Source: an uncultured Tateyamaria sp. (GTDB lineage: Bacteria; Pseudomonadota; Alphaproteobacteria; Rhodobacterales; Rhodobacteraceae). From it: 64,000 bases of DNA. Positions 5,062-43,465 of this stretch are shown here, piece by piece. The position numbers and the translations under genes are program-made. The notes beneath the pieces are model-generated. The model was not told the origin of the DNA. It was given only the letters and a program-made list of their open reading frames with translations, and did not search any database. The stretch spans positions 1 through 64,000 of the forward strand of contig NZ_CANLAG010000011.1 of the NCBI RefSeq assembly GCF_947488715.1. Direction: 5' to 3'. Within the stretch, counting starts at the first letter, position 1, and each line of letters opens with the position of its first letter.

Positions 5062-5483
5062 CCGTTGGTGCGAATTTTGAAGCTGTACCGTTTTCGAGCC
5101 TGCCCACGCGCTCGTCTAAGCTTGATTTCTGTGTCCAAAGCTCTTTGTTGTTCGCGCGTTTGCAATAAAACTTGCTTGGTTGTTTTGGAATCCTCCAGCG
5201 TGGGTCTACTGCAATTCTTAGGTGTTTACTGCTTATGGTTTTTAATCACAGCGAAGGTCAGAAATACGGGCTGCGGCAGCATTAATTTCAAGGGTTGATG
5301 AATGTTGTTTACCTGCCGCGCATGTTCTTGGTTTTGCAGTTTTGCAAAGTCCGCTTTCTACGCTTCGTAGGCATTCATACAAGACGCAGCATTTTGCACT
5401 TTAGGCTCGCTGCTGTCATTTTCTGCATCACGGACAGCCGTGCGACCTTAGCACAGGATGTCGCCCCTATCCGCAACTGACCC
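5062..5483. other. non-coding stretch between RTX gene and integrase pseudogene
   Basis: About 420 bases with relatively T-rich composition. Two short plus-strand open frames are present but have no RBS, no known motif and odd residue composition, so they are not called. No terminator with a clear stem and T-tract was found after the RTX stop. Confidence 0.4.
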
Positions 5484-6466
5484 TTAGTATCCGATCCTCA
5501 GACTCGCGCTATTTCTGTGCTTCTTGGCAGTGTGGTTATACCCTTCGGTTGGTCGTGATCGATGAGTGACCCACCGTGCGCTGGATATCTTCGCCCGTTG
5601 CCCCGGCCTCATAGGCGGCCGTATTCATGGTTGCCCGCGACATGTGCGGGAATGCTCGCACATCCCGCGCCGCTTTCTCCGCATACCACTGAAACAAATA
5701 GGCCAACGTGCTGCGATCCATCGGATGCCCCGGTTTACCGTTTATGCAGGCCTGGAAGAGATAGGCGTCCGCATCATCCCGATGGGGCGCAACATCCAGA
5801 TACGCCCGGATCGCCGCCGCGCACTCCAGAATGATCGCCACCATATTCGTTTTTCCACCCTTGATCGTGAGATGCAGTATTGGGAACTCAGCATCGTAGG
5901 TAAAATCGCGAACCCGGAGGTTGGTGGGTTCTGACACCCGCGCCCCGGCGTAGAATAAAGACACGCAACAGCGCGCGGTCGCGCAGGCCTTGGGCGGTTT
6001 CGACGTTTGGCGCATCGAGCATGGCGCGCACTTGCCGCTTAGAAAGGGTGGGAGATTTACCTGCACCCATCCCGGCGTTGCCGGTTCTGGGCCGTCGCAC
6101 CTCGGCCACCGGACTACTATACGTAAGCTGCTGGTCGGTCAGGTGTTTGTAGAGCGACGACAAAGCCGCCAAGCTGGCGGCGATGCTGGCAGGGGAGAAG
6201 CCTGCGGCTTCCATCGATGCACGCCATGCTAAAACATGGGCTTGTTTGACGCCATAGAGATCGTCTGGTGTTGTCATGCCTGTGGTGGCAACAAAAGAGT
6301 CAACAGCGCGATTATACGCATCACGCGTGTGGGATGATGAGAAATTCGCCAGCCAGACATTTTCAGCCCGCACGTCAGCCAGGGCGGTAAACGTATCAGT
6401 CTCTGTCATCTCGCGGTTGGTGACCTCAATGAGCTGCTTTACGGGTGCGCTCTCATAGTTGTTCAT
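5484..6466 (-). pseudogene. XerC/D-type tyrosine recombinase, frameshifted
   Basis: The start is ATG at 6464-6466 with a GGAGGA just upstream. The first part encodes an N-terminal SAM-like core-binding domain (SSSHTRDAYNRAVDSF). The frame then changes at about 5950-5970 into one encoding the catalytic domain: Arg I in YAGARVSE, Lys in GGKTN, H-x-x-R in PHMSRAT and the GHSSITT box. That frame stops at 5536 without the nucleophile. One extra G in the GGG at 5541-5543 explains this: in the shifted frame TAT at 5538-5540 places Tyr nine residues after the GHSS His, the normal spacing, and translation would run to TAA 5484-5486. Two frameshifts therefore inactivate an otherwise complete recombinase of about 325 residues. 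Such enzymes catalyse site-specific strand exchange in mobile elements. Confidence 0.8.
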
Positions 6467-6598
6467 GCTCCTCCAATGGTAGCATAAATATTCCTGCATA
6501 AAGCAAGTATTGATGGAAGAATGGGAGCGATCTACTGAAAAGCAAATCCGGCAACAACCGCACATGAAAACCCCCGGGCAGGTGGCCGAGGGCTTTTC

Positions 6599-6946
6599 TC
6601 AATACTCTGACGCAAGCATGATCGTCAGCACGCGTGTCGTCTTCGAAAGATCCGTAGCTTCTGGTGAGCCACATTCGAGCCGGTTGTCATAAAGATCAAT
6701 TTTCCAAAAGCAGGCCTCGCCCGCGAATTGAAACGAGCCAAACTCGTGCGTTCCGTAGGGACCGTCGTCTTCAGTGAAAGTGTCGAAGGCCTGCACAATT
6801 GCGATGACATCAAGCGGTGCCCCGCCTGTCTCCTCCAAGGTGCCTGCTATGCCAAGTGTTAAAACAATTTGGCCCAGAATGCCGGGTTCCCCCCTTCTGA
6901 ACCGGTCGTTAGCGTCCTGAATGATTTGTGTTGCTTTGTCTGGCAT
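6599..6946 (-). CDS. DUF3768 family protein
   Basis: 115 residues from ATG 6944-6946, preceded by GAGGA at good spacing. An upstream in-frame start exists but lacks an RBS. The conserved family features are visible: an LTLGI segment, then FDTFTEDDGPYG, a block with FWKIDLYD, and the C-terminal TTRVLTIMLASEY. DUF3768 proteins are small, of unknown function, and common on plasmids and integrated elements of Alphaproteobacteria, which fits this region. It lies 32 bases downstream of the coiled-coil gene on the same strand and may have been co-transcribed with it. Function unknown; family assignment is from memory of its motifs. Confidence 0.75.
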   Translation of the reverse strand: MPDKATQIIQDANDRFRRGEPGILGQIVLTLGIAGTLEETGGAPLDVIAIVQAFDTFTEDDGPYGTHEFGSFQFAGEACFWKIDLYDNRLECGSPEATDLSKTTRVLTIMLASEY

Positions 6947-6978
6947 GCCGTCCTCGCTGTCTTGACACGCCCGACCAT

Positions 6979-7620
6979 TCAGGCGCATCGATCAAGCGAG
7001 GACGCAGCTGGTCTATGCCACTCCGGTTGCGGCTGTTGATAGCTGTTAGTTGGCTCGATTTCCGAAACGACTGACGGGTCTTCTGGCTGCCTCTCGTCTT
7101 CCGGAAGAAGCTGCACTGCCTCTGGCCCATCGCTTGGCGGGTTTGTGACCCCATGCAGCGCAAGTGCATTATTTGTCTCTGATTGCATCTCAAAGCTACA
7201 GACAATTCGGTCAATTGTCTTAAGCGCCTCGTCAGTTGACGTCCCGCGCCGTTCTATTTCAGCGTGCGCCCTTTCGAGTTGCTCGCGCAAAAACTTGTTC
7301 TCTTCTTCCTTGTCATGCAACCGCTCACGTACTTCGTCGAGCACGCTTGCAGAAGCATCCGCCTGCCGAATATCGAGCGCGCCAGTGCGCACCGGTTCGG
7401 ACGCGTTCGCACTCAGTTCGTTTTTCTTTACAAACTTGTGGCCGTCTGAGTTGTCCGAGATCTGGTTCAAACCAGTTCGAACCGGGTCGAACATGTTCTC
7501 GGGTTTTTCCTGCATATTCTCTGTTTCATTTGGCGCACCTGTTCGGACAGGTTCGGACGGGTGCGCACCGGCAAGCGAGAATTCCTGATCGACCTTCAGG
7601 GCTGCCGCGCCGCGAAGCAC
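6979..7620 (-). CDS. coiled-coil protein with PVRTG repeats, probably 5'-truncated
   Basis: 213 codons opening at GTG 7618-7620, immediately after an in-frame TGA at 7624-7626, with no RBS. The N-terminal half has three copies of a (E/D)PVRTG(A/L) motif (SEPVRTGAP, FDPVRTGLN, SEPVRTGAL). The middle is a charged helix with heptad character (RERLHDKEEENKFLREQL) and the C-terminal part is low-complexity and acidic. The 5' edge coincides with the place where an integrase fragment on the same strand loses similarity, so the true N-terminus, perhaps a DNA-binding domain, was likely deleted. I do not recognise a specific family. Confidence 0.5.
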   Translation of the reverse strand: MLRGAAALKVDQEFSLAGAHPSEPVRTGAPNETENMQEKPENMFDPVRTGLNQISDNSDGHKFVKKNELSANASEPVRTGALDIRQADASASVLDEVRERLHDKEEENKFLREQLERAHAEIERRGTSTDEALKTIDRIVCSFEMQSETNNALALHGVTNPPSDGPEAVQLLPEDERQPEDPSVVSEIEPTNSYQQPQPEWHRPAASSLDRCA

Positions 7621-7928
7621 CGTTCAATCGCATCCGCTACAGTTAGCCGTTGCTCATGACGCATCGCAGCTTGCCGCGCTTGGATCGGGTCAACACCATC
7701 GCGCAGTTGCCTACGCGCGGCAGATGCCCGCTCCCGAGCTTCGGAAAGCGGCACATCCGGCCACCGACCCAGACCCATTTCCCTTCACTTTCCTGCAACG
7801 TTGAGGCGTAACGTCCACTTCCCGGTCTCTTTCCGGCTCTTCACCAACATCAATCCTTGGCCGTCACAATGTTTGCACGGACCAAGGTTTTTGACCTGGA
7901 GTTGTGTCAACGCGTTCAAAAGTGTCAT
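7596..7928 (-). pseudogene. P4-like integrase, N-terminal fragment with nonsense codon
   Basis: Starting at ATG 7926-7928 the minus strand reads MTLLNALTQLQVKNLGP, then KHCDGQGLMLVKS, GKWTLRLNVAGK, a TGA at 7785-7787, and REMGLGRWPDVPLSEARERA. This is the arm-type DNA-binding domain (DUF4102) of P4-family tyrosine integrases. The TGA sits where Arg is normal in GKRRE (CGA to TGA). Similarity is lost after CFAARQP at about 7600, and the catalytic domain is absent. The fragment lies about 160 bases from the 3' end of tRNA-Thr, the usual attachment site for such integrases. It is therefore the relic of an island insertion. Confidence 0.85.
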
Positions 7929-8088
7929 AGCCCACCTTTCCGCACCTAACTCCAGCCCACCCTTCGGACCACCTCAATATTTGGAAAAACAGTGAGGTGC
8001 TGTAAGGTGGTATGTTCAGGTTGCAACAAAAAATACCTATAAATCAAAGGTATTTGGACGTGACTTGCGTATCTATGAAAAAGTAGAA

Positions 8089-8164
8089 TGGTGCCCCCAC
8101 ACGGACTCGAACCGCGGACCTACTGATTACAAATCAGTTGCTCTACCAGCTGAGCTATAGGGGC
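8089..8164 (-). tRNA. tRNA-Thr (anticodon UGU)
   Basis: On the minus strand a 76-nucleotide cloverleaf starts GCCCCTATAGCTCAG, has the anticodon arm CTGATTTGTAATCAG with loop TTTGTAA (anticodon TGT), the T-arm GGTTCGAGTCC, and ends GGGGGCA with an encoded CCA at 8089-8091. The acceptor stem GCCCCTA pairs with the 3' strand. It reads threonine ACA-type codons. The broken P4-like integrase next to its 3' end suggests it served as an integration site. Confidence 0.95.
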
Positions 8165-8298
8165 TTCGGAGCGGGTGTCTAATCATTGTGCAACAGACTG
8201 GCAAGATGAAAATTGCTCCCTTTGCAGAGGTTTTCTCTGTCCCGTTTTGCGGTATAGCTGACCTTCGAACGGGCAAAGCAAAAACTAGGCGGTGCAAT

Positions 8299-9174
8299 AT
8301 GCAACTGGTCCTGCACGCAGGCGCACATTTTACCGAAGAAGAACGGGTTATGCGCTGTTTGCTGCGCAACAAGGAAGACTTCTCCAAGCGCGGCGTTGCG
8401 GTGCCTGGACCTGGAAAATACCGGACGCTGCTCAAGGAAACACTGGCCGCTCTGCAGGACGCTGCTCCGGCTGTGGATGCGCGCGATGTGATGCTGGACC
8501 TGATTCTCGACGAAGAAAACGCCGACAGGATGATTCTGAGCCACATGTTCCTGTTCGGAGCACCACGGGCATGTGTGCGCAACGGGATGATCTACGAATC
8601 TGCCCCTGCCCGCCTGGCCGACCTGGCCAAGCTGTTTGTGCATGACGACATCGAAGTGTTTCTGGCGTTGCGCAATCCCGCGACCTTCCTGCCGGCCCTT
8701 TTCGAAAACGCACCCCAAGAAGACATGAACGCGTTCCTGCGCGGCGCTGACCCGTTTGCCATCCGCTGGTCCGACACAATCGCAGCCATCCGCAGCGCAG
8801 CGCCGGAGATCACCATTACAACTTGGTGTTTCGAGGACATGCCGATGATCTGGGCACAGATCATTCGCGAAATGGCCGGGCTGGAGCACGGTGAGAAAAT
8901 CATCGGTGGTTTCGATCTGCTGTCCGACATCATGTCCGACGAGGGCATGAAGCGGTTCCGCGCTTATCTCAAGTCACACCCCACCATGACCGAAATGCAA
9001 AAGCGCCGCGTGATCTCGGCTTTTCTGGACAAGTTCGCCATCGAGGACGAAATCGAAGAAGAGCTGAATGCGCCCGGCTGGACCGAAGAAACGATCGACG
9101 CGCTGACCGACCTCTACGAAGAAGACATGCACAACGTCGCACGCATCCCCGGCGTCACGTTTATCGCGCCCTAA
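8299..9174 (+). CDS. conserved hypothetical protein (Rhodobacteraceae type)
   Basis: 291 residues from ATG 8299, chosen over an upstream ATG at 8188 because the MQLVLHAGAHFTEEER start is compact and the extra N-terminus lacks family-like sequence. The protein is soluble and alpha/beta-like, beginning with a hydrophobic strand followed by HAGAHFTEE. It then has a conserved-looking block GVAVPGPGKYRTLL, an FLALRNPATFLPAL strand-helix, and an acidic C-terminus. The layout is loosely reminiscent of sulfotransferase-like P-loop proteins, but no PAPS-binding motif is evident. No function is assigned. Its stop codon overlaps the convergent GFA gene by four bases (CTAA). Confidence 0.6.
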   Translation: MQLVLHAGAHFTEEERVMRCLLRNKEDFSKRGVAVPGPGKYRTLLKETLAALQDAAPAVDARDVMLDLILDEENADRMILSHMFLFGAPRACVRNGMIYESAPARLADLAKLFVHDDIEVFLALRNPATFLPALFENAPQEDMNAFLRGADPFAIRWSDTIAAIRSAAPEITITTWCFEDMPMIWAQIIREMAGLEHGEKIIGGFDLLSDIMSDEGMKRFRAYLKSHPTMTEMQKRRVISAFLDKFAIEDEIEEELNAPGWTEETIDALTDLYEEDMHNVARIPGVTFIAP

Positions 9175-9602
9175 CCGCGCGGCGGCAGACCGTCAAAGAC
9201 GGGGATGTTGTCGGGCACCATATGGAACGCTTGAGCGTCACCATGGCATATCGCGACATGTGGTCGGAAACGCGCAGGGTCATCCAATGTCCCCACCTTG
9301 AGCACCAGCGCCGCCTGATCCTGCCGACGGGTCAAGACCTGCGTTCCGCACGTTGCACAAAAAAACCGGGTGACTGCGTTCTCAAGATCATCCAGCGCAA
9401 AGGATGCGGGCGTGCCATGGGTCCAGTCAAAGCTGTCAGGCGCCACCAGCTCGAAATACTGCGGACCGCCCCCGGCAAATTGCTGGCACGGGCGGCAATG
9501 GCACTGCCCCTTGACCAGCGGCTGTCCGGACACAGCATAACGCAAGGCCCCACAATAACATCCCCCCGTGCGCGGCGCGAATTTTGTGGTGTGTTCTGCC
9601 AT
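9171..9602 (-). CDS. GFA family protein (zinc-binding, CENP-V/GFA fold)
   Basis: 143 residues from ATG 9600-9602. The GFA (glutathione-dependent formaldehyde-activating enzyme-like) fold is indicated by the zinc cysteines: GGCYCGALRY near the N-terminus, QCHCRPCQQFAG at about 35-45, and FFCATCGTQV near 95. Many members have no proven glutathione or formaldehyde activity, so the substrate is unknown. It is divergent from an HxlR-type regulator 51 bases away, which is the likeliest controller. The upstream TTG/ATG extension was rejected because it has no family sequence. Confidence 0.85.
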   Translation of the reverse strand: MAEHTTKFAPRTGGCYCGALRYAVSGQPLVKGQCHCRPCQQFAGGGPQYFELVAPDSFDWTHGTPASFALDDLENAVTRFFCATCGTQVLTRRQDQAALVLKVGTLDDPARFRPHVAICHGDAQAFHMVPDNIPVFDGLPPRG

Positions 9603-9653
9603 GTCGCGATACCCTCTGTGCCAATAAGAGCAAAATGACAGGCCTGAGTTCAC

Positions 9654-10139
9654 GTGTCAAACCCAGAATCCGACCCGATCCGCCAAAGCCCCGTACCCAT
9701 GGACCAATGCGGCGCAGCACTCGCCCTTGATGTGCTGCCTGACCGATGGACATGGATGATCCTGCGCGAATTGTTTTACGGCGTGGGACGGTTTGCAGAC
9801 ATTCAGGACGACATCGGTATTCCGAAATCGGTGCTGTCTGGCCGACTTGCCAAGATGGTCGACAACGACCTGATCCTCAAGGAAGCATACCGCGACGGCA
9901 CATCCCGCACCCGCCACGCATATGTGCTGACCCAAAAGGGGCGCGAGCTGGTGCCGGTGATCGTTGCGCTGATGCAGTGGGGTGACAAGCACATCAAAGG
10001 CGGCAAACCCGCGCTGGAATTCTCTGACCGGCGGAACGGCAATGCGGTCAAGTTCGGGATTGCACCAGAGGGCGGCGTGCTGCCGCTCAGACGGCTGACC
10101 TATACACCGGTTTGGGACCGGCCTGAAAACAAGGTCTGA
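9654..10139 (+). CDS. HxlR family transcriptional regulator
   Basis: 161 residues from GTG 9654; an internal ATG at 9699 (MDQCGAALALDVLPDRW) is a plausible alternative that gives the usual HxlR N-terminus. It is a winged helix-turn-helix with conserved DRWTWMILRELFYG, FADIQDDIGIPKSVLSGRL and YVLTQKGRELVPV. A single cysteine (DQCG) near the N-terminus is in the position used for thiol or aldehyde sensing in some HxlR/HypR proteins; that role here is inference. It is divergently arranged with the GFA gene, so it probably autoregulates and controls that gene. Confidence 0.88.
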   Translation: MSNPESDPIRQSPVPMDQCGAALALDVLPDRWTWMILRELFYGVGRFADIQDDIGIPKSVLSGRLAKMVDNDLILKEAYRDGTSRTRHAYVLTQKGRELVPVIVALMQWGDKHIKGGKPALEFSDRRNGNAVKFGIAPEGGVLPLRRLTYTPVWDRPENKV

Positions 10140-10150
10140 GCCGCAGGCCC

Positions 10151-10414
10151 TCAGCTCATGCCGAGGGCTTCTTTGTACATTTCCAAGACCGCCTCTTCTT
10201 CGGCGATGTCATCCTTGTCGCGCTTGCGCAGGGCAATCACCTTGCGCATGACGCGGGTGTCGTAGCCGCGCGCCTTGGCCTCGGCCATGACCTCTTTTTG
10301 CTGGTCGGCCAGGTCTTTCTTTTCCATCTCCAGACGCTCGAACCGTTCAATAAACTGACGCAATTCGTCGGCGGTGACTCGGTAGCTCTCAGCGTTGGTG
10401 GATGTGTCAGACAT
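10151..10414 (-). CDS. gapR: GapR-like DNA-binding protein (DUF2312)
   Basis: 87 residues from ATG 10412-10414 with GAGG upstream. Nearly all of it is the DUF2312 signature: ELRQFIERFERLEMEKKDL, then VMAEAKARGYDTRVMRKVI and LRKRDKDDIAEEEAVLEMY. In Caulobacter GapR is an essential tetrameric nucleoid-associated protein that clamps overtwisted, AT-rich DNA ahead of replication forks and stimulates type II topoisomerases. Size and sequence match the family fully. It is convergent with the HxlR gene and divergent from a small membrane protein gene. Confidence 0.95.
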   Translation of the reverse strand: MSDTSTNAESYRVTADELRQFIERFERLEMEKKDLADQQKEVMAEAKARGYDTRVMRKVIALRKRDKDDIAEEEAVLEMYKEALGMS

Positions 10415-13365: not shown

Positions 13366-16047
13366 CTACTGCGCGGCCAGTGCCGCCAGTTGCGGCAATC
13401 GGACCACGAACACGTTCCCTTTCAGGGTGGGATCAAGCGTGATGTCCCCCCCCAAACGGGTCATGATCTCGCGGCAAATGGCAAGACCCAAGCCTGCGCC
13501 CGACCCATCCTGATCGTTGATGCGGGCAAATTTCTCGAAAATGAGGGCGCGTGCCTCGGGCGCAATGGGCGTGCCATTGTCACGGAACACAACTTCAACT
13601 GCGGTGTCCGTGCGGCGCACGTCGATCTCCAGGCGCGGTTCGGCCGCGTCGCAGTATTTCTGCGCATTGGTGATCAGGTTGATGAACACCTGATTCAGAC
13701 GGTCCAGATCCGTCATGAGCCGTACAGGGTCCTCGCCCGGATGGCGCACAACCTCCAGATGCCGGGCCGAGCCCGCCTGCGCCGTCAGGATGGATTGCGC
13801 CAAAACATCCCCAAGCTGACCGGTGTCGAGGTTCAGGCTGACCTGACCGTTTTCCAGCACGCTCAAATCCAGCAAATCGTCCAAAAGGCGGGTCAGACGG
13901 ATCGCCTCACCATGGATGATTGAGGCGTATTTCGTCTGCTCAACCTCACCCAAACCTTCGGTATCGCGCAAAATCTCGGAAAACGACCGGATCGATGTCA
14001 TGGGCGTACGCAACTCATGGCTGATCTGGCTGAGAAACGCGTCCTTTTGCACCGAAAGAGCCGTCAATTTCTGGTTCGCCTCGCGCAACTGGCGCGCGGT
14101 GCGGGTCAGTTCATCCGATTTCGCCTCCAACCGGTTGGAGTATTCGAGGATCTGGGCAGATTCGTCGGCCACCGCCATCAGCTCTTGCACCGACACAGAC
14201 GCGCCCCCAACCAACTGGCTGATCATCGCGTGGGCTGTCGCCGCCCCCACGGATGCAGCCAACTCACGCTCCAGATGTTGCAAAAACGCCTGTGTGGGTT
14301 CTGGCAATTGACCGTGCACGCCCTGCCGACGTGCCTCCGCGCGAAAGAGGATCTGTGCCTCTTCGGCGCCAAGGATCCTCTGTGTCATGATCATCAGGTC
14401 TTCGGATGTGGCGAGTGCCGCGTCCCAGCCGCGCGCCTGCGTCGAGTGGTCGAACACATTCACGAACTGTGCCCCCTGCAGGCGCTCAAGAGGCTCGGGG
14501 AAGGTGACAAGCGAGACGATCAGAAACACCGCCGTGTTCAGCGTCAGCGACCACGCAACCGCATGCACTGTTGGATCAATCCCCTCGATCCCGAACAGCG
14601 CAAGCGGGCGCAACCACCCAATCCCCCACAACCCGTTGTCAAATGTCGCCACGCTGAGAACCGCGCCGGGGCCGAAACTGGGCAGCAGCGAACAATACAC
14701 CCAGACAGTGAACCCAACGACCAATCCCGCCAAGGCCCCCCAACGCGTTGCACCGCGCCAGAAAATGCCGCCCAACATGGCAGGCAAAAACTGTGCCACG
14801 CCAGCGAAGGAGATCAGGCCAATGGCCGCCAGCGCCGCTCCGCCCCCTGAAAAGCGATAGTAGAGGTATCCCAACCCAATGATCATCAGGATGGACGCGC
14901 GCCGAGCCAGGATCACAACATCGCGCACGTCACCCGACACCTGCGCACCCTCTGCCCGTGCACTCAACCAAACGGGCATCACCACGTGGTTGGACATCAT
15001 AGTCGACAGCGCAAGTGTGGCCACAATCACCATCGACGTCGCTGACGAAAAGCCGCCAAGAAAGCTGAGTGTCGCCAAACCCACGCGCCCCTCGGACAGC
15101 GGCACAGTCAGAACAAACAAATCCGGGTTCGATCCTGCGGGCATCAGGTCGAGGCCGATCACGGCGATCGGCACCACAAACAGGCTCATCAACATCAGAT
15201 ACAGCGGAAAGGCCCAGCTTGCGATCTGCAGGTGCCGTTCATCCTCGTTCTCGACAACCATGACCTGAAACATCCGGGGCAAGGCCAGAAATGCCGCCGC
15301 CGACAGGGCCGTCAACGCGACCCAGCGGCTGCGGTCCATGTTCCATTGCCCGATGGGCGATGTGTCAATCCGGTCCATCATCGGGCCAAGGCCACCCGCG
15401 ATGCCCCAGACCACAAACACACCCACTGCCAGCAACGCCACCAGTTTGACCACAGCCTCGACAGCGATGGCGATCACCACTCCGTCATGGCGTTCGTTGG
15501 CATTCAGGTTGCGGGTCCCAAACAACACCGTGAAAATGGCAAGACCAAAGGCCACCCAGAACGCCGCGCGAAACTGGTTCAGGCTGCCGGCGCCTTCGGG
15601 GCCGGAAAAGATCGACAATGACAGTGTGACGGATTGCAATTGCAGCGCGATGTAAGGCGTCACCCCGATCACCGCCATCACCGTGACGACAATCGCCAGC
15701 AAGTTCGATTTGCCGTAACGGGCCGAAATCAGGTCAGCCACCGATGTGGCCCGATGCACCCGGCCAATGCGCACCAACTTGCGCAGCGCCCACCACCACC
15801 CGATCATCACGAGGCTTGGCCCCAGGTAGATTGTCACGAACTCCATCCCCGACCGCGCGGCGTAGCCAACCGCACCGTAGAATGTCCACGCCGTGCAGTA
15901 GATCGACAGAGACAGCGTGTAGACCAAAGGCGACCGCAACCAGCCACCGCGCCCACGTGCAGCGGCCCGTTCTGCGAAAAACGCAATTGCAAAGAGAAAC
16001 GCGACATAGCCGAGGCTGACGGCAATCAGCTGATTGACCGACGCCAT
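13366..16047 (-). CDS. Na+/solute symporter-histidine kinase fusion (CrbS/CbrA-like)
   Basis: 893 residues from ATG 16045-16047. About 1-490 is a sodium:solute symporter domain with roughly 13 membrane helices (LVYTLSLSIYCTAWTFYGAV, VADLISARYGKSNL). A linker follows, then a kinase core: phosphoacceptor His near residue 675 in SQISHELRTPMTSIRS, N-box FINLITNAQKY, G1 DNGTPIAP and G2 GAGLGLAICREI. CrbS/CbrA-type proteins couple substrate transport or sensing to phosphotransfer, and CrbS controls acetate use. Its start overlaps the stop of the preceding small membrane protein gene (ATGA), and a response regulator is upstream in the same operon. Confidence 0.9.
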   Translation of the reverse strand: MASVNQLIAVSLGYVAFLFAIAFFAERAAARGRGGWLRSPLVYTLSLSIYCTAWTFYGAVGYAARSGMEFVTIYLGPSLVMIGWWWALRKLVRIGRVHRATSVADLISARYGKSNLLAIVVTVMAVIGVTPYIALQLQSVTLSLSIFSGPEGAGSLNQFRAAFWVAFGLAIFTVLFGTRNLNANERHDGVVIAIAVEAVVKLVALLAVGVFVVWGIAGGLGPMMDRIDTSPIGQWNMDRSRWVALTALSAAAFLALPRMFQVMVVENEDERHLQIASWAFPLYLMLMSLFVVPIAVIGLDLMPAGSNPDLFVLTVPLSEGRVGLATLSFLGGFSSATSMVIVATLALSTMMSNHVVMPVWLSARAEGAQVSGDVRDVVILARRASILMIIGLGYLYYRFSGGGAALAAIGLISFAGVAQFLPAMLGGIFWRGATRWGALAGLVVGFTVWVYCSLLPSFGPGAVLSVATFDNGLWGIGWLRPLALFGIEGIDPTVHAVAWSLTLNTAVFLIVSLVTFPEPLERLQGAQFVNVFDHSTQARGWDAALATSEDLMIMTQRILGAEEAQILFRAEARRQGVHGQLPEPTQAFLQHLERELAASVGAATAHAMISQLVGGASVSVQELMAVADESAQILEYSNRLEAKSDELTRTARQLREANQKLTALSVQKDAFLSQISHELRTPMTSIRSFSEILRDTEGLGEVEQTKYASIIHGEAIRLTRLLDDLLDLSVLENGQVSLNLDTGQLGDVLAQSILTAQAGSARHLEVVRHPGEDPVRLMTDLDRLNQVFINLITNAQKYCDAAEPRLEIDVRRTDTAVEVVFRDNGTPIAPEARALIFEKFARINDQDGSGAGLGLAICREIMTRLGGDITLDPTLKGNVFVVRLPQLAALAAQ

Positions 16048-34737: not shown

Positions 34738-36252
34738 CTACTTGGTGAACGAGCGTTTGATCACAATCTCGGTGTTGTCCGGCTTTGGTGAGACAAGCAG
34801 CAAGCCGACCACGATCAGTGCCACGGCGATCCAGGCGGTGGACGACAGGGTTTCACCCAGCAGCAACATCCCCCAACCGATGCCCGCCATGGTCATCGCA
34901 TAGGCGCTTTGGCTGGCGAACACAGGCCCAGCAAGGTCGACCAGTTTGAAGCTGGTGATCATCGTAAAGGCGATGACCACGCACAGGATCAACGATATCC
35001 ACTCAGCGCGCCCAAAGGTGTCAGAGAAGAAAAGGCTGCCTTCGACCAGGATCGCAGAAGGTGCCAGAATGAACGATGACATCAGCATCATCACCCCGAT
35101 CGCGGGGAGAAAATCGAGATCGGCAGGTTTCTTGGCTGCGACAAAAACCCATTCGATTGCATAGAGTGTGGGCAGGCTGAGAGACAGAACAAGCCACCAC
35201 CACCCGGACCCCGCGCCCGACAAATCCAACTTGTCGAACAGCACAACAAACACACCGACAAGGCCAAATGTCAGGCCAATCAACCGTTGCGGCGTCGCCT
35301 TTTCCAACCGCGTGACGGAGGCGAAGACAAAGACGATAAACCCTTGAAAAGTAGCGACAAGTGCCAGCAGAGTAGCCTCAATCTGGCCTGCGAGGAACAG
35401 CAACACAACGCGCTGTAGAATGGCGGCAATGACCGTCCAGATGGCCAGAAATCCGATGTATTTCAGCTTGAACGTCTTGAATTGCCCACGCGCGGCGGCG
35501 ATGGAAATATAGCTGGCCGCAAGAAACAGGTTCACCCAAGTGGCCAAGGCCAACGGTGTCGCACCTGCATTGGCCGCCAAACGTGAAATGGCTGGTGTTG
35601 ACCCCCATAGGATACCCACCGTGATCACCAGAATGATGCCCTGCAAGGCGTGGATCATTTTGCGCAGACGCAGCTCGCGTTGATAAATTTCGCCGGCCAT
35701 GCCCGTGAATACAGCCGCCAACTGGCCCAGCGCGTCCTTGTGTTCCCGCAGGTCGTCAATCTGCAGGCTTTCCGGTTTGAACTGGCCGGTTTCGACGATC
35801 TCCGCTGCCGCCGTCAGACGTTCGACGCGGACCAGATATTCCTTTTCCTGATCGCGGAACTCTTTCTTGGTCAAGGATGCCGTCAACCGAGCGCGCAGCA
35901 AGACCGGGTCGAAATCCTTGGGCAGAAAATCCTCGGCCCCCATCTCGATAGCTTGCACCACGCTGTCACGCTCTTCTTCTAGGGACGAGACGACAACCAC
36001 GGGGATGTCGCGCAATTGCGGATCATCCTTCATGGCGCGCAACACGTCGAACCCGTCGACACCGGGCATGACGATGTCCAACAGCACAACGTCATAGTCC
36101 TTGGCGGCCAGCGCTTCTAGTCCCTCTGCCCCCCCTTCCGCCAGATCCGCATCATAGCCCAAGCGGCGCACCGCAGAGCGCAGTTTTTTGCGGCTGATCA
36201 GACTGTCGTCGACGATCAGGACGTTTGCAGAGTTTTCAATTGGCGTGGACAT
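34738..36252 (-). CDS. response-regulator receiver fused to an EamA/DMT-family transporter
   Basis: 504 residues from ATG 36250-36252, one uninterrupted frame. Residues 10-125 are a receiver domain: VLIVDDSLISRKKL, phosphoacceptor Asp59 in DVVLLDIVMPGVDG and Lys112 in DFLPKDFDP. Residues 130-200 form a helical, charged linker (LGQLAAVFTGMAGEIYQREL). Residues about 203-490 are a ten-helix EamA drug/metabolite transporter with two five-helix halves (ILWGSTPAISRLAANAGATP and AYAMTMAGIGWGMLLLGETL). A phosphorylation-gated membrane transporter is implied. It is 39 bases downstream of an HPt gene on the same strand. I know of no described example of this fusion. Confidence 0.88.
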   Translation of the reverse strand: MSTPIENSANVLIVDDSLISRKKLRSAVRRLGYDADLAEGGAEGLEALAAKDYDVVLLDIVMPGVDGFDVLRAMKDDPQLRDIPVVVVSSLEEERDSVVQAIEMGAEDFLPKDFDPVLLRARLTASLTKKEFRDQEKEYLVRVERLTAAAEIVETGQFKPESLQIDDLREHKDALGQLAAVFTGMAGEIYQRELRLRKMIHALQGIILVITVGILWGSTPAISRLAANAGATPLALATWVNLFLAASYISIAAARGQFKTFKLKYIGFLAIWTVIAAILQRVVLLFLAGQIEATLLALVATFQGFIVFVFASVTRLEKATPQRLIGLTFGLVGVFVVLFDKLDLSGAGSGWWWLVLSLSLPTLYAIEWVFVAAKKPADLDFLPAIGVMMLMSSFILAPSAILVEGSLFFSDTFGRAEWISLILCVVIAFTMITSFKLVDLAGPVFASQSAYAMTMAGIGWGMLLLGETLSSTAWIAVALIVVGLLLVSPKPDNTEIVIKRSFTK

Positions 36253-36291: not shown

Positions 36292-36642
36292 TCAAATAGT
36301 GGCGGGGTCAATCTCGGCCAATGCGGCCGTGTCGGCCGTCGACTGCTGTGCAATCTGGTCGACCAAAGCGCCGCTTGTGTCTGTGTCGCCTGCTTTGCAC
36401 TGCGCCTCGAGCGTTTTGCTGAGGTCCGACAAATCGAGCGCGCCCAAGTCTTTGGCGTTGGATTTTAATGTATGTGCTGCAATCCGCACCTTGTCCCAAT
36501 CATGCGCTGTGACACCTGCCTGCATATCGGCAACGAGTGTGGGTGCAATTTCGAGAAAGTCCTCGATAAATTCTGCCAGATCTTCGGGATCGCCCCCCAC
36601 CAGATCCAACAGTTTCTTGAGCGCGTTTTGATCAATGGCCAT
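36292..36642 (-). CDS. HPt (histidine phosphotransfer) domain protein
   Basis: 116 residues from ATG 36640-36642 (MAIDQNALKKLLDLVGGDP). Starts at 36696 or 36717 are possible and would add 18 to 25 residues. A four-helix HPt domain is indicated by LAEFIEDFLEIAPTLVADM and the phosphoacceptor motif RIAAHTLKSNAKDLGA. It relays phosphate between the hybrid kinase and separate receivers. Its operon partner is the receiver-transporter fusion, and it is divergent from the receiver-cyclase gene, which makes both receivers its likely targets. Confidence 0.85.
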   Translation of the reverse strand: MAIDQNALKKLLDLVGGDPEDLAEFIEDFLEIAPTLVADMQAGVTAHDWDKVRIAAHTLKSNAKDLGALDLSDLSKTLEAQCKAGDTDTSGALVDQIAQQSTADTAALAEIDPATI

Positions 36643-36866: not shown

Positions 36867-37925
36867 TTGAGAAAGCACGGCTTAATTTTGCAGACTTCGA
36901 GCCACAGCGTCCTGGTTGTTGACGACAGCAAGATCAACCGCCGCAAAATGGAAAAGGCGGCCCAAGTGCTGGGGCACGCGACCATTGCGGTTGAGAACGG
37001 CGCGGATGCGCTGGCTGTTTTGGCGACGGAACGGATTGATCTGGTTCTGCTGGACATCGAGATGCCGGTTCTGGACGGATTTGGCGTGTTGGCCGCGATG
37101 CGTGATGATGTGGCTTTGGTGGATATCCCTGTAATTGTCATTTCGGCCATCGAAGACATGGACAGTGTTGTGCGTGCCATCGAGTTGGGCGCGCAAGATT
37201 TTTTGCCCAAAGACTTTGAGAAGGTGCTGTTTGCAGCGCGGGTCGGTTCGTGCCTTGAACAAAAGCGTCTGATGGACTTGCGCGCGGACGCCTTGGCAGA
37301 GATTGAGGCCGAAAAGGCGCGCGTGGACGCGTTGCTTGGGGCGACACTACCGGCGGCGGCCATTTCAGAGTTGAAAAAGACCAATCAGGTCCGCCCCAAA
37401 CGGCACGAAAACGTGGTTGTTCTGTTTGCGGATGTGGTTGGGTTTACCCAATTCTGCGACCTCAACCCGCCAGAATTGGCGGTGTCGCGCCTTCAGGGGC
37501 TGATCAACGGGTTCGAGCAGATCACGGCAGACGAAGGCCTCGAAAAGATCAAGACCATCGGTGACGCGTTCATGGCGACCGCCGGATTGTTGCAGCCGAT
37601 CGCAGATCCCGTGCAAGCGGCGGCACGTTGCGCCTTGCAGATGGTGGCGGCAGCGCCTGGTTTGACACAGGGCTGGCAGGTGCGCGTCGGCATACATGTC
37701 GGCCCTGTGATCGCAGGTGTGATTGGTCAACAACAGCACCTGTATGACCTCTGGGGGGACACGGTGAACACAGCCGCGAGGGTTACCGGTGTCGGAACCC
37801 CTTCCACGGTGTGCATCACTGGCGATATCCACGCCCATCTCAATGGCCGCGTCACCGCTCTGGGCAATGTGAAGGTCAAGGGCAAGGCACCCTTGGACGT
37901 CTTTCAACTGGAGGGCCTGGATTAG
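36867..37925 (+). CDS. response regulator with class III adenylate/guanylate cyclase output
   Basis: 352 residues from TTG 36867; TTG 36888 is an alternative. The receiver domain (residues 13-128) has SVLVVDDSKINRRKM, Asp63 in VLLDIEMPVLDG and DFLPKDFEKV, and is strikingly like that of the receiver-transporter fusion. A helical linker leads to a class III cyclase domain. Its metal-binding residues are Asp189 (VLFADVVGFTQ) and Asp233 (KTIGDAFMA), adenine-selecting residues Lys229 and Asp294 (LYDLWGDTV), and transition-state Asn301/Arg305 (NTAAR). All catalytic residues are intact, so phosphorylation probably controls cAMP synthesis. Its stop overlaps the convergent hybrid-kinase stop by four bases. 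Confidence 0.9.
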   Translation: MRKHGLILQTSSHSVLVVDDSKINRRKMEKAAQVLGHATIAVENGADALAVLATERIDLVLLDIEMPVLDGFGVLAAMRDDVALVDIPVIVISAIEDMDSVVRAIELGAQDFLPKDFEKVLFAARVGSCLEQKRLMDLRADALAEIEAEKARVDALLGATLPAAAISELKKTNQVRPKRHENVVVLFADVVGFTQFCDLNPPELAVSRLQGLINGFEQITADEGLEKIKTIGDAFMATAGLLQPIADPVQAAARCALQMVAAAPGLTQGWQVRVGIHVGPVIAGVIGQQQHLYDLWGDTVNTAARVTGVGTPSTVCITGDIHAHLNGRVTALGNVKVKGKAPLDVFQLEGLD

Positions 37926-40669
37926 GCGCGAACCGCTTCTTTTTGGCGCGCACGGAATGCTTTGGCCGTGTGCAGTGTTGCCACCAACGCTTCGATGTCG
38001 ATGGGCTTGCTCAGATAGTCGTCCATGCCCGACTGCAGGTATGTGTCCCGCTCCGAGGCCATCGCATTGGCGGTCAACGCGACGATGTAAGGGCGTTCGC
38101 CGGGGTCGAGAGCATCGTGGATGTGACCGGTCGCGGTGATGCCATCCATCTCGGGCATCTCGATATCCATCAAAATGACATCGTAATTCTTGATCTTGGC
38201 TTGCAGGACGGCTTCGGCACCGCTGGCGACCACATCGGGGACAACACCTTTGTTCTGGAGGATCTTGGTTGCGACCTTGCGGTTGATCCTGTTGTCATCG
38301 ACCAGCAGGATATCGAGGTCCAACCTGTCCGCACCCGCAGCACCTGTCTGATCAGCTTTGGCGCTTTCATCTTCGCCAGCGACGACCCTGCTCAGCAAAT
38401 CCAGCAGATGACCGGATTTGGCAGGTTTGGTCAGCGTTCCGGCAAACCCGATGGCGTCGATTTCGGCGCGCAAGGTTGATTCAACCTGCCCCACCGAACT
38501 GAACAGGACCATTGGTGGCGTATCTGCACCCATCTTGGCCTTGAGCTCTACGGCCAGTTCGGCGCCGGACATATGGGGCATCTTGTAGTCCAGGATCACC
38601 ACATCGTAGCCAGACAGGTCCGCATCCAGCGCCTCTTGTGGCGTGGCAAGGGCGTTGGCCTGCAGTTTCCATTGCCGCAGTTTTTCCAGCAGGATCATCC
38701 GATTGGAGCGATTGTCATCGACGATCAGCGCCTGTTTTCCGTTCAGATTCCGGATGCGCGCCTCGCGTTGCTCGCGGTCAGGCGCCGGGGCTGCCTCCAC
38801 GCTCAGGACAAAGGAAAACTCCGTTCCCTTGCCAACTTCGCTCTCGACATGGATTTCGCCGCCCATCAACTCAACCAGCCGTTTCGAGATTGCGAGGCCG
38901 AGGCCTGTTCCACCGTATTTCCGGCTTGTGCTGGCATCGACCTGGCTGAACGACTTGAACAGCCGGTTCATGCGTTCGGCCGGGATGCCGATGCCCGTGT
39001 CACGCACCGCGATACGCACTTGCGTCGTCTCGCCGATGGCCGGTTCCGGGCCGTTCTCTATAGCTTCGATGGTCAAGACCACCTCGCCTTCGTCGGTGAA
39101 TTTCACAGCGTTGTTCAGCAGGTTCATCAGGATTTGCTTCATCCGGATCGGGTCACCAAGGACGCCCGCAGGCACACCGGGCCCAATACGGCTGGCAAGC
39201 TCGATGCCCTGCCCCGCAGCTTTGGACACCACGAGGTCCAGCGCACTTTCGACGACGTCCGCTACGTCGAATGGCGTGCTCTCCAGCTCCAGCGCGCCTG
39301 CCTCCACCTTGGAGAAATCGAGGATATCGTTGATGATCATCAACAGCGTGTCAGCGGCGGTTGATATGGTGTCACTATAGTCGCGCTGTTCGTCGTTCAG
39401 TTCGGTCTCTTGCAAGAGCGTGCTCATGCCCATGATCCCGTTGAGCGGCGTCCGGATCTCGTGGCTCATCGTGGCGAGGAACGAGCTCTTTGCCTCGTTC
39501 GCCGCTTCGGCTTCTTCCCTTGCGAGTTGCAGTTCGGTGATGTCGGTGAATGTGGCGACCGTGCCGCCATCTTCGGTCTTGCGTTCGTTGATGCGGACCC
39601 AACTGCCATCCGACCGCTTTTGGACATGTGCGCCGGACGGGTTGCGATGCGCTTCGATCCGCTCTTTGATCCAGCTTTCCTCTCGCCCAACCGCGTCTTT
39701 GATCAAGCCCTGCGCAACCGCCTGCCGGATGACGGTTTCAAAGGTCGCACCTGCTTTTATCTCTTGCTCCAACCCCGGATACATCATCCGCAAATAAGTT
39801 GAGTTGGACACGATAAGACGGTCGTCATCATCATAGAGCGTGAAGCCATCGGTGATGCTCTCGATGGCGGTGGTAAGTTGCCGGCTGGTCTGGCGCAGCT
39901 CGACTGTGCGCGCCTCGACGGCCTGTTCAAGGGCATCGCGCGAGTCCTCCAACCGCTTCAGGTTGACTTCTTCACGCGCCAGCATGTCATTGAAGGCCGA
40001 TATGACCTCGCCCATTTCATCGCGGCTGTTCCATTCTACGGGGTCGCGTGCACCGCCCTCTTCGACGGTCTGGATGGACTTCAACAGTCGTTCAAGCGGT
40101 CGCCCGACGATACGGCGATTGGCCAGTGCCGCCGAAATGATCACCGCCAGCAACAGTACACCCGCCAACGCCGCCGCCACGACCATGCGTTCATTGCGTT
40201 CCGCCAACAGACGGTCGTTGCGCAGTGCCAATTCAAATGTGCCGATGATTTCAGCGTCTTCGCCCGTACCAAACTGGATGTTGGTTTTTGCCTGCAGAAC
40301 TTCGGCCAATTGGGTTGTTCGGCTCTGCGACAGTATCAACTGGTTGTCTTCGTCGCGGATGGTCAGCTGTGCCACGTCCTCATCGAGCATGATGGCGTCT
40401 GCCACAAGGTGGATTTGCTCGCGCGCGACGTTCCAGACGGGATCGGCCAGCACCTCGCTTTGCGTGGTCAGAATCTGCTCAAGCTTTCGTGAAATTGCCT
40501 GTTCGGCCCGGCCTGCGGAAATCCATTCGACGACGCCGAATACAAGTGCAATCGCCACGAGAACCAGCGGCGCCACAATCGATAAAAATTTAGCCTGTAG
40601 TGTCAATTGCTTAACTTTCGCCTTTGCAGTGCCGCCATACGGCACCGGTGCGGACAGAATACGCCGCAA
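37922..40669 (-). CDS. hybrid sensor histidine kinase with two receiver domains
   Basis: 915 residues from ATG 40667-40669. Two membrane helices (about 29-50 and 161-182) flank a periplasmic sensor region. HAMP follows ([16 protein letters not shown]), then a PAS domain (residues 260-380, [18 protein letters not shown]), HisKA with His403 in [16 protein letters not shown], and HATPase with [18 protein letters not shown] and [13 protein letters not shown]. Receiver 1 has [14 protein letters not shown] and receiver 2 [14 protein letters not shown]. It lacks its own HPt, which the nearby HPt protein can supply. It is divergent from a periplasmic binding-protein gene that may provide its ligand input. 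Confidence 0.92.
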
Positions 40670-40781: not shown

Positions 40782-41513
40782 GTGAGAGCATATTTTTTGG
40801 CCGCCGTCGCGGGCCTGTTCCTTGGAACACAAGCGGCAACAGCGCAGACTTTGAACCTGGCGGCGACAGAATGGCCTCCGTTTTATGGATCGGAATTGCC
40901 GGACAACGGGTTTATGACCGAAATCGTGGTCGAGGCATTTGACCGCGCAGGATACGGCACTGACGTCTCTTTCCTGCCATGGAAACGCGCCTTTGAAGGG
41001 TCACGTGACGGCAAATACGATGCGCTGTTCACCATGTGGTATCGCGAGGAACGCGAAGAGTTCTTTATCTTCTCTGACCCGCTGCCATCCAACGAATTGG
41101 TTTTGCTGGTCCGCTCCGGCGAGGGTGGTTCATTTGAGGGCTATGACAAGCTGAAGGGAAAGACCGTTGGCGTTGTACGCGGATATGCCGCCCCTCCCGG
41201 TTTCGAAGAGGCCGGTCTGGACGTTTCCGAGGCGCGCGATGACGAGGAAAACCTGCGCAAACTGCTGCGCGGGCGTGTGGATATGGCACTGACGGACCGC
41301 ATCGTGGCCCAGCACATCATCAACACCAAGATGGAGAACGAAGCGGAGAATTTTGGATGGATGGAGCCGCCCGTCCACATTGATGTTCAGTATATGGTTG
41401 TGCCCAAAGCGATCGACGGTAGTGCCGCTTTGATGGATGCGTTCAACGGATCACTGGCCGAAATGACTTCCGACGGCACTTTGGAAAAAATCATGGGCAA
41501 GCACGGCTTTTAA
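40782..41513 (+). CDS. periplasmic solute-binding protein (SBP_bac_3 type)
   Basis: 243 residues from GTG 40782. A Sec signal peptide (AYFLAAVAGLFLGTQAATA) is cleaved near residue 22. The mature domain has the family-3 look: LAATEWPPFYG, EIVVEAFDRAGY, YDALFTMWYREEREEFFIFS and GKTVGVVRGYA. No permease or ATPase is encoded nearby. Because it is divergent from a hybrid kinase and shares its putative operator, it may serve as a periplasmic ligand sensor rather than a transport component; that is inference. Confidence 0.85.
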   Translation: MRAYFLAAVAGLFLGTQAATAQTLNLAATEWPPFYGSELPDNGFMTEIVVEAFDRAGYGTDVSFLPWKRAFEGSRDGKYDALFTMWYREEREEFFIFSDPLPSNELVLLVRSGEGGSFEGYDKLKGKTVGVVRGYAAPPGFEEAGLDVSEARDDEENLRKLLRGRVDMALTDRIVAQHIINTKMENEAENFGWMEPPVHIDVQYMVVPKAIDGSAALMDAFNGSLAEMTSDGTLEKIMGKHGF

Positions 41514-43243
41514 GCGTCGGACTGCCCTTTGAGATCAGCATGCGCCCAGTCCAAGATCTGGGCGTATTGCTGGTGGAACACCATGTAACCGCTGTTTGGA
41601 AGCACTTCGAGCGTCACATGGTCGAGCGCCTCTGACCAGCGCCGCGCGGCACCCCATTGCACGTTGCGGTCATGCTCTCCGATCACGAGGCGCACCGCCA
41701 CGGGGCAGTCGGTCAAGAGTGGCCGCCAATCCTCGCGGTAGTTGAGATCGCCAAAATTGCCAACATGGCCCTGATCGCGGTGAACACGGCGACCATGCAC
41801 CATAACGGGCAGGATATCGGGGCGCGTGATCCACTCAACATCTTTGGGCGACGCGCGCATCACAGCCTTGCCAAAGGCGGCTGGGCCGGATCGCATGACA
41901 AAAGCAAAACCGGCCTTACAAAGAAACTTGACCGACGCGGGAAAGTGCAATCGAGCATGCGGCAGCAGGTAATTGTAGCCGTTTGTCCCCTCAAGATCCT
42001 CATCACTGAGCACCGGCAAGAGCGGGTGGCACGCCGTGATCCCTGTGATCCGGTCGGGCAACTGGGCGGCCGCGGCCAATGCGTGGACCAGCCCGGATGA
42101 CGACGACACAATTGCCACCCGGTCAATGCCCAGATGATCCAGCAGGGCCTGCACATCCGGCACAAAGTCACGTGGCTCGCTTGCCTCGCCTGGGTAGACC
42201 GTGGTGCGCCCAAAACCGGGGCGCAAAGGGCCAATAATGCGGATATTGCGACGGGCGGCCATCTGAACCGGTTCTTTGAACCAGACATCGCCAAACGCCT
42301 GATCGTGATACCACAACACCACGTCGCGCCCGTCTGTGGCGCCAAAATCCGAATAGTCCAGCAGCCGCCCATCCGGCAGCGTCAGCACGTGTCGCTGATC
42401 CTCGCGCGGGAAAAACGCGGTTTCGTTCCGCGCCTCCAGACGTGCGGCCACAAGATTGCCTTCGTCCACCTCGTGCATCAGTGCAAGGCCATACACCATA
42501 CGTGTGCAATCCATCTGATCGACCGTTTCAGTCTTGGAAAAGATCGACTGAAGCTGGCTGCGCACGGTTGAAACAGCCGCCCTCCTGCGCCGCGCCATTT
42601 CCTTGACCTTCAACCCTTCGACCATCAACCGGATTACATCGATTTCGGCCCGGCTGAGATCGAACAAGTCCTGCAAGATCGGGCCAAGATGCGCCGGCCA
42701 TCCCACATCGCCCGTCCGCAGGATCACCAGCGGGCGTTGTGTGCTGGGCTGCACATAGCGTTCCAGACGCACCAGTATGGGGCGCCCGCTTTGCTCATTG
42801 CGGAACCGCAAGACATCGTTGGGTGAATTCTGTCGGCCACCGTGCTTGGACATATCCATCACGCGGTCCTTGAGGCGAGCCGCATCGGAGGTCGAGATCG
42901 GGAGCGTCGCAATCGAGCTGTCAGGCACCAGATCATAGGCCGTCATCGCGGCCATGTTGGCATCCAGCACGTTGCCGTTTTCATCCAGAGCGGCGGTGAC
43001 CTGCACGCGCTTGGCAAGCTCTTGATGCAGTGTTTCATCCGTTTCGCGCCGCCACGGCGTCACAATATCAACAAGCGCAGATGCCCTCTGCATGTGTTGT
43101 GACAACGCGCTGGCATATCCTGCCTCGCCGTTTTGCCGCATCGTGGTCAACTTCTCTTCGAGATTGACCATGAACGCGTCATAGGCGTCCGGTGTCGCCA
43201 CCAGATCATATATTTCGTCGATGATAGAGCCTTCGGTCGCCAT
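41510..43243 (-). CDS. LuxR-type HTH regulator fused to an alpha/beta hydrolase domain
   Basis: 577 residues from ATG 43241-43243 (MATEGSIIDEIYDLVATPDA). Residues 1-190 form a helical then PAS-like region (VTAALDENGNVLDANMAAM). Residues 193-250 are a LuxR-type helix-turn-helix (FDLSRAEIDVIRLMVEGLK, VSTVRSQLQSIFSKT). Residues about 290-577 are an alpha/beta hydrolase fold (VVLWYHDQAFGD, IIGPLRPGFGRTTVYPG, LVIGEHDRNVQWG). The nucleophile elbow reads VSSSSGLV, with Ser replacing the first Gly of GxSxG, and the usual GH near the end is GY. The domain may bind rather than hydrolyse a ligand. Divergent from an SLC13-type permease gene. Confidence 0.85.
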   Translation of the reverse strand: MATEGSIIDEIYDLVATPDAYDAFMVNLEEKLTTMRQNGEAGYASALSQHMQRASALVDIVTPWRRETDETLHQELAKRVQVTAALDENGNVLDANMAAMTAYDLVPDSSIATLPISTSDAARLKDRVMDMSKHGGRQNSPNDVLRFRNEQSGRPILVRLERYVQPSTQRPLVILRTGDVGWPAHLGPILQDLFDLSRAEIDVIRLMVEGLKVKEMARRRRAAVSTVRSQLQSIFSKTETVDQMDCTRMVYGLALMHEVDEGNLVAARLEARNETAFFPREDQRHVLTLPDGRLLDYSDFGATDGRDVVLWYHDQAFGDVWFKEPVQMAARRNIRIIGPLRPGFGRTTVYPGEASEPRDFVPDVQALLDHLGIDRVAIVSSSSGLVHALAAAAQLPDRITGITACHPLLPVLSDEDLEGTNGYNYLLPHARLHFPASVKFLCKAGFAFVMRSGPAAFGKAVMRASPKDVEWITRPDILPVMVHGRRVHRDQGHVGNFGDLNYREDWRPLLTDCPVAVRLVIGEHDRNVQWGAARRWSEALDHVTLEVLPNSGYMVFHQQYAQILDWAHADLKGQSDA

Positions 43244-43465
43244 GACCGGACAATGGCGCGGGACAATGGATATGAAAAGACCCGACGCAGCCGTTTTGCC
43301 CGACGCGCCAGCATGTCTCAGGTGGGTCCTCAAGTGATCTCAGATGGCATGCAACGGGATTAGCCACCTATTTTTCGCAACACCACGGCCTGGTCCGTCA
43401 ACTTCGCGGGATTGGACCTATGCGAAGCAGCCCGGCTTCGCGTATCATTTTCAAAGGGAGGAAAA

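Follow-up and report, generated by a model that had tools for sequence, protein, structure and literature searches.

The 64-kb stretch of a marine Tateyamaria analysed here (64,000 nucleotides; the window) encodes, in a single uninterrupted frame of 504 codons, a receiver domain fused to an EamA/DMT membrane domain. This fusion, which recurs at 13 further loci, was confirmed as real and conserved. The output of two-component systems is usually transcription or second-messenger synthesis, and the protein described here is a response regulator with an unusual, even surprising, sort of output. On balance we think that it probably stands at the end of a His-Asp phosphorelay, as a response regulator whose output domain is a membrane transporter. 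The protein, its parts and the genes beside it are as follows.

34738..36252, minus strand: REC-HAMP-EamA fusion protein, 504 aa (open reading frame and Pfam)
35881..36225, minus strand: receiver domain, residues ~10-124 (Pfam Response_reg; DD/D/S/K intact; the sole well-modelled part)
36076-36078 and 35917-35919, minus strand: codons of D59 and K112, respectively
35659..35835, minus strand: HAMP-like domain, residues ~140-198, N-terminal to TM1 (Pfam HAMP in family members; NarQ profile match in PDB)
34783..35637, minus strand: EamA/DMT domain, residues ~206-490 (two Pfam EamA stretches; hydropathy)
36292..36642, minus strand: HPt protein, likely start ATG 36642 (Pfam Hpt 45.9 bits; His motif AHTLKSNAKDLG)
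36867..37925, plus strand: receiver-adenylate/guanylate cyclase response regulator (Pfam Response_reg and Guanylate_cyc)
37922..40669, minus strand: membrane hybrid histidine kinase (CHASE5, under the cut-off; HAMP, PAS_7, HisKA, HATPase, two receivers)
40782..41513, plus strand: periplasmic solute-binding protein of family 3, putative ligand sensor (Pfam SBP_bac_3 52.4 bits; divergent from the kinase gene)

Residues 11-123 matched Pfam Response_reg with 88.9 bits (cut-off 30.2), and the catalytic aspartate pair D15/D16, the phospho-acceptor D59, S89 and K112 are all there. A first-pass annotation of the window had described one 504-codon frame holding both a receiver, complete with Asp59 and Lys112, and an EamA transporter; both statements were borne out, Response_reg and two EamA stretches scoring above their Pfam cut-offs. 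That annotation had named a receiver unable to accept phosphate as a ground for rejecting its reading; the receiver of the window protein has all its catalytic residues. The full catalytic set is present in 15 of the 17 fusion copies (11 full-length aligned rows, plus those of loci L151-L154, read by eye); the other two are the broken copies, namely the truncated row of L087 and the third copy of L090. Structure prediction from a 15-row alignment (the window protein, L031 and receiver fragments of related loci) modelled only the receiver well, with pLDDT below 50 over residues 158-269 and 280-504 (mean 52.6). The fold prediction that had been proposed as a check was thus informative for the receiver and left the membrane part unmodelled.

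The membrane part carries two EamA stretches, the better one at residues 352-488 (48.2 bits against a cut-off of 28.2). Kyte-Doolittle analysis of the window protein called nine hydrophobic segments within residues 199-487 and another at 55-73, inside the receiver. The earlier description of a full ten-helix EamA transporter holds for the two repeats, with about ten helices, and is weaker for the tenth helix (~443-464), which lies under the hydropathy cut-off in this protein. Ten segments were called in the membrane part of the first L086 copy and of L087; full-length members have nine to eleven hydrophobic segments each, and for most of them nine or ten of these lie in the membrane part.

Between these two domains lie some 70 residues that had been taken for a mere helical linker, a description that has to be corrected. 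Nine of 12 family members match Pfam HAMP at E≤10 (best E 1.4e-6), the window sequence itself reaching 13.6 bits (E 0.086), under the 25-bit cut-off. When a profile of the linker was compared with the PDB, NarQ scored best, through its HAMP region (E 0.097); a profile of linker plus EamA gave a single weak PDB match (E 0.092), and alignment with hhalign to eight kinase HAMPs from the same loci was weak (probability 10.9%, E 0.0028). HAMP domains usually follow a transmembrane helix; in the fusion protein the order is the opposite, the HAMP-like part preceding TM1. We read it as a diverged HAMP, which looks unusual in standing before the first membrane helix.

Since an 89%-identical gene exists in a second genome, dN/dS is low and the fusion occurs at 13 loci besides the window, it is neither a chance arrangement nor a sequencing artefact. 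In the closest pair, the window gene and that of L031, the receiver had a dN/dS of 0.058 and the linker one of 0.027, with dS near saturation; in the EamA part dS was saturated and the ratio not computable. Identity in this pair was 91% over EamA and 83% over the receiver, and the pair is, judging by these alignments, under strong purifying selection. No homologue was met as two separate genes, the arrangement that the first-pass annotation had said would speak against a true fusion. That the gene is a chance or broken product of frameshift, misassembly or pseudogene formation has next to no probability: two copies are indeed defective, that of L087, with its transposase gene and truncated receiver, and the third of L090, whose frame changes and stops short, but the frame is open at 12 other loci, the nearest pair bears the mark of purifying selection and the gene cluster is conserved. 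The conserved family refutes this reading in practice.

In all, the fusion was found at 14 loci, counting the Mesorhizobium plasmids as one. L086 has two copies and L090 three, which makes 17 copies in total, two of them broken. The hosts are Rhodobacteraceae genomes, an uncultured Sulfitobacter (L031) and these plasmids. The distribution is sparse and patchy. A scan of genome contigs returned the 89%-identical Sulfitobacter gene as the one near relative, the other 24 loci matching the receiver. Within its own genus the fusion occurs in 1 of 20 genomes, that of the window. In the family sample, 8 of 394 genomes, its own included, match over linker and EamA, and in each of the seven others a receiver stands in front (in L087 only its C-terminal part). 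Four of the 11 genomes that matched at E≤1e-70 in the order sample (371 genomes) were new. At E≤1e-35, whole-model matches were limited to its own genome in the class sample (385 genomes), and to its own genome, G278 and G292 in the phylum sample (398 genomes); these two samples share genomes with each other and with the family sample. Five plasmid records match, and three of them, all Mesorhizobium and near-identical, have the whole fusion at 39% identity, in a protein annotated just 'response regulator'. No relative was found in viral contigs, and none of the best 10 of the 42 phage records with a match covers 80% of the query.

Several of these loci have features of their own. Two intact REC-EamA paralogues lie near one kinase in L090 (7132-10318) and L086 (8567-11630); the second type shares ~34% identity with the window protein and branches separately. 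The broken third copy of L090 (~14473-15429, plus strand) comes right after an HPt gene, and its reading changes frame and ends inside EamA. In L087 a transposase gene (7758-8924, minus strand; rve integrase core) separates the pieces of the kinase from the truncated receiver. The L154 gene (~8794-10302, minus strand) is open through the whole receiver, with no ATG, GTG or TTG before the receiver's first strand. Open reading frames at the relatives' loci were called as the longest frame, which is sometimes antisense, and several without a Pfam match may be of that kind; the ten flanking frames read are accordingly no evidence against a permease gene nearby. A tblastn recheck added binding-protein genes in L086, L151, L153 and L154 as well as the broken third L090 copy, which the family search had also hit.

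In a tree of EamA domains, the 12 fusion rows group together in a single clade (support 100/98), to which none of the 59 ordinary EamA rows from the same searches belongs. Rows L112 and L113, labelled ordinary in this tree, in fact come from the fusion genes of L091 and L089, respectively; they are left out of the 59, and owing to the mislabelling the printed number of label changes is three instead of one. Because the fusion domains form one clade, a single origin of the fusion is the simplest reading within this sample. Mean pairwise identity across the family is 0.401 for EamA, 0.459 for HAMP and 0.587 for the receiver, EamA being the most variable part. Compared with 61 positions conserved among ordinary EamA rows (61 rows, duplicates left in), the fusion clade keeps 31 and does not keep the other 30, among which are several prolines and glycines in the first repeat; at 10 of the 30 the commonest residue is still the same. 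As 30 of 61 generally conserved positions are not kept, the EamA part may be specialised, and transport may be altered or even lost.

Such divergence would suit an arrangement in which EamA is degenerate and serves just to tether the receiver to the membrane, as a phosphate sink or for localisation. We regard such an anchor as quite improbable: the kept positions include R323, G326, G330, G442, Q448, Y451, G457, W460 and E467, EamA is the better conserved part between the window and L031 at saturated synonymous sites, and each full member retains the hydrophobic segments described above.

The fusion gene stands among genes of a phosphorelay. In the window, the HPt gene lies 39 bases upstream on the same strand, and a hybrid histidine kinase and an HPt are encoded alongside the fusion at 13 of the 14 loci. 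The HPt has its own gene in the same cluster at 12 loci, usually directly beside the fusion, and is fused to the kinase at one (L154). The suggestion that an HPt gene might always be adjacent thus holds widely and fails at L087, the sole exception, where no HPt was found at the locus, the kinase is split over two frames, a transposase gene is present and the receiver lacks its N-terminal part. Four loci fetched after the pattern had been noticed (L151-L154) all fit it. Only five HPt matches occur in the whole 4.1-Mb genome of the window, which makes adjacency by chance improbable. The HPt histidine was seen by eye in all nine HPts read (the search motif matched seven of them). The Sulfitobacter locus has the same gene order as the window (binding protein, kinase, REC-cyclase, HPt, fusion), with a different flank past the fusion; in L090 the HPt adjoins the broken copy, the two intact copies lying on the other side, beyond binding protein and kinase. 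HPt and fusion frames overlap in L089, L091, L092, L129, L151 and L152. On the Mesorhizobium plasmids (L129, 9592-11548, and L130) the overlap is 32 bases, and a hydroxyacid dehydrogenase gene comes next.

The sensor regions of the kinases vary, being CHASE5-like (at or under the cut-off), TorS-type or GAF. A TorS sensor domain scored above the cut-off in the kinases of L089, L092 and L154 and below it in L091, and Pfam found none in those of the window, L086, L088, L090 and L129; the scan covered kinases other than those of L151-L153. A gene for a periplasmic binding protein was detected by tblastn at 13 of the 14 loci, the exception being the Mesorhizobium plasmids, whose kinase has GAF domains. 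It is of family 3 in the window, L031, L086, L087, L088, L089, L090 and L154, and DctP-type in L091, L092, L151, L152 and L153. Pfam confirmed six of these proteins (window, L088, L089, L091, L092, L152), that of L090 had no Pfam match, and the remaining assignments are by BLAST. In ten loci the gene directly precedes, on the same strand, that of the kinase; it is divergent in the window and L031 and downstream of the fusion in L088. Binding protein, kinase, HPt and fusion occur together at 12 of the 14 loci.

Related clusters end in a cyclase. Three relatives from the same genus (L138, L139 and L140), all of those examined, have one or two binding proteins, a kinase with a C-terminal HPt (Pfam scan of L138 only) and a REC-cyclase, and the genome of the window has a second kinase-HPt-REC-cyclase cluster (L136). 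The receivers of the fusion are 44-56% identical to those of the REC-cyclases of the window and L031, and the two kinds lie near each other in a quick tree, which has several long branches and relies on a crude cyclase motif (the cyclases L002, L003 and L005 were marked 'oth'). From these same-genus and own-genome clusters, the transporter appears to fill the output position of the cyclase, the window and L031 having both; the window REC-cyclase is probably a second output of the same kinase and HPt. The first-pass annotation had the core of this right, a phosphorelay-linked receiver fused to an EamA transporter; it had overlooked the HAMP-like nature of the linker, the binding-protein gene and the cyclase at the same output position. 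In L136, the region 1726-7572 (minus strand) encodes a 1948-aa hybrid kinase with many GAF repeats apparent by eye, followed by the HPt and REC-cyclase.

HAMP domains normally carry signals away from the membrane, and this direction favours the converse arrangement, a transceptor or feedback arm: EamA would bind or move a substrate and, through HAMP, tune phosphorylation or dephosphorylation of the receiver, and hence the kinase, the HPt and a parallel output. The second output in the window and L031, and the half of the generally conserved EamA positions that are not kept, also agree with signalling from membrane to receiver. We nevertheless consider it unlikely. In a tblastn search with the window cyclase domain, a cyclase gene lies beside the kinase only in those two of the 14 loci; L092 has a weak 26% match ~3 kb beyond its kinase, and L154 a lone receiver after its kinase. 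Elsewhere no further response regulator could be recognised in the neighbourhood of the kinase, which would leave nothing downstream to tune.

In the relay that we favour, with signalling from kinase to transporter, the periplasmic solute-binding protein would act on the membrane hybrid kinase, so that a small extracellular molecule is sensed. The kinase would pass phosphate to its own receivers, from these to the HPt and on to Asp59 of the fusion. The phosphorylated receiver would then alter how the adjoining HAMP-like helices pack or dimerise; these helices would run into TM1 and raise or lower EamA transport of a small metabolite, perhaps amino-acid-like. In the window the same kinase and HPt would probably also feed the receiver-cyclase. 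The phosphorelay wiring of the fusion is well supported by the sequences; transfer of phosphate from HPt to D59 is the step that we infer most safely, followed by a change in transport, through HAMP, upon phosphorylation of D59. We put at about even chances the broader proposal of a response-regulator class with transport as output, in which a phosphorelay gates a DMT-fold carrier post-translationally, a HAMP-like element signals from cytosol to membrane, and cyclase and transporter are interchangeable.

Known systems resemble parts of this arrangement. The REC-cyclase regulators of L136 and L138-L140 have the same kind of sensory cassette and related receivers; they make a second messenger, whereas the fusion has, as its output, a membrane transporter behind a HAMP-like domain. 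With EamA/DMT transporters, of which YddG and RhtA are examples, the fusion shares two EamA repeats, about ten helices and key motifs, and it differs from them in its separate clade, in its N-terminal receiver and HAMP-like part, and in about half of the general positions not being kept. CbrA-type kinases carry a transporter-like SLC5 domain in a sensor kinase. They likewise join a two-component protein to a transporter domain, on the kinase (input) in CbrA and on the receiver (output) here. The TorT/TorS/TorR system ends in TorR, a DNA-binding regulator. TorT is described as binding to TorS, which offers a precedent for a binding protein that works through a kinase of this kind (PMC3795677). 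Common to both systems are a periplasmic binding protein adjoining a hybrid kinase and, in three of the kinases scanned, the TorS sensor domain; the fusion differs in having EamA in place of a DNA-binding output, and in binding proteins of family 3 or DctP type. LacS of Streptococcus thermophilus is a carrier fused to a phospho-accepting cytoplasmic IIA domain that regulates transport, a precedent for a fused, phosphorylated domain modulating its carrier (PMC10703360). There phosphate passes from HPr to a C-terminal PTS IIA domain, whereas in the fusion it is proposed to pass from HPt to the aspartate of an N-terminal receiver; the carrier families are unrelated, and the Pfam scan of the window found no PTS domain.

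Among the matches listed in a search of titles and abstracts, whose coverage leaves out most subscription journals, no published description of a receiver-EamA protein was found. The retrieved portion of PMC12487129 has the receiver and EamA families as separate entries of one table, and that of PMC1183210 held nothing relevant to such a protein.

Recurrence of the fusion with its kinase and HPt in related bacteria suggests that transport may, in some bacteria, be under the direct control of a signalling relay, not of gene expression. If so, a dedicated phosphorelay ending in a carrier could alter flux within seconds of sensing an outside ligand. A natural, conserved protein makes the question of whether a receiver can gate a transporter directly testable, and the exchange of cyclase and transporter at one genetic position illustrates how one output module can replace another.

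On the far side of the binding-protein gene, the window encodes at 41510-43333 (minus strand) a 607-aa protein in which a LuxR-type helix-turn-helix region (GerE, 20.7 bits, under the cut-off of 23.5) precedes an alpha/beta hydrolase. This protein is possibly part of a wider system; part of a homologue (92%) borders the module in L031, and next to the fusion gene of L089 lies another of 24% identity.
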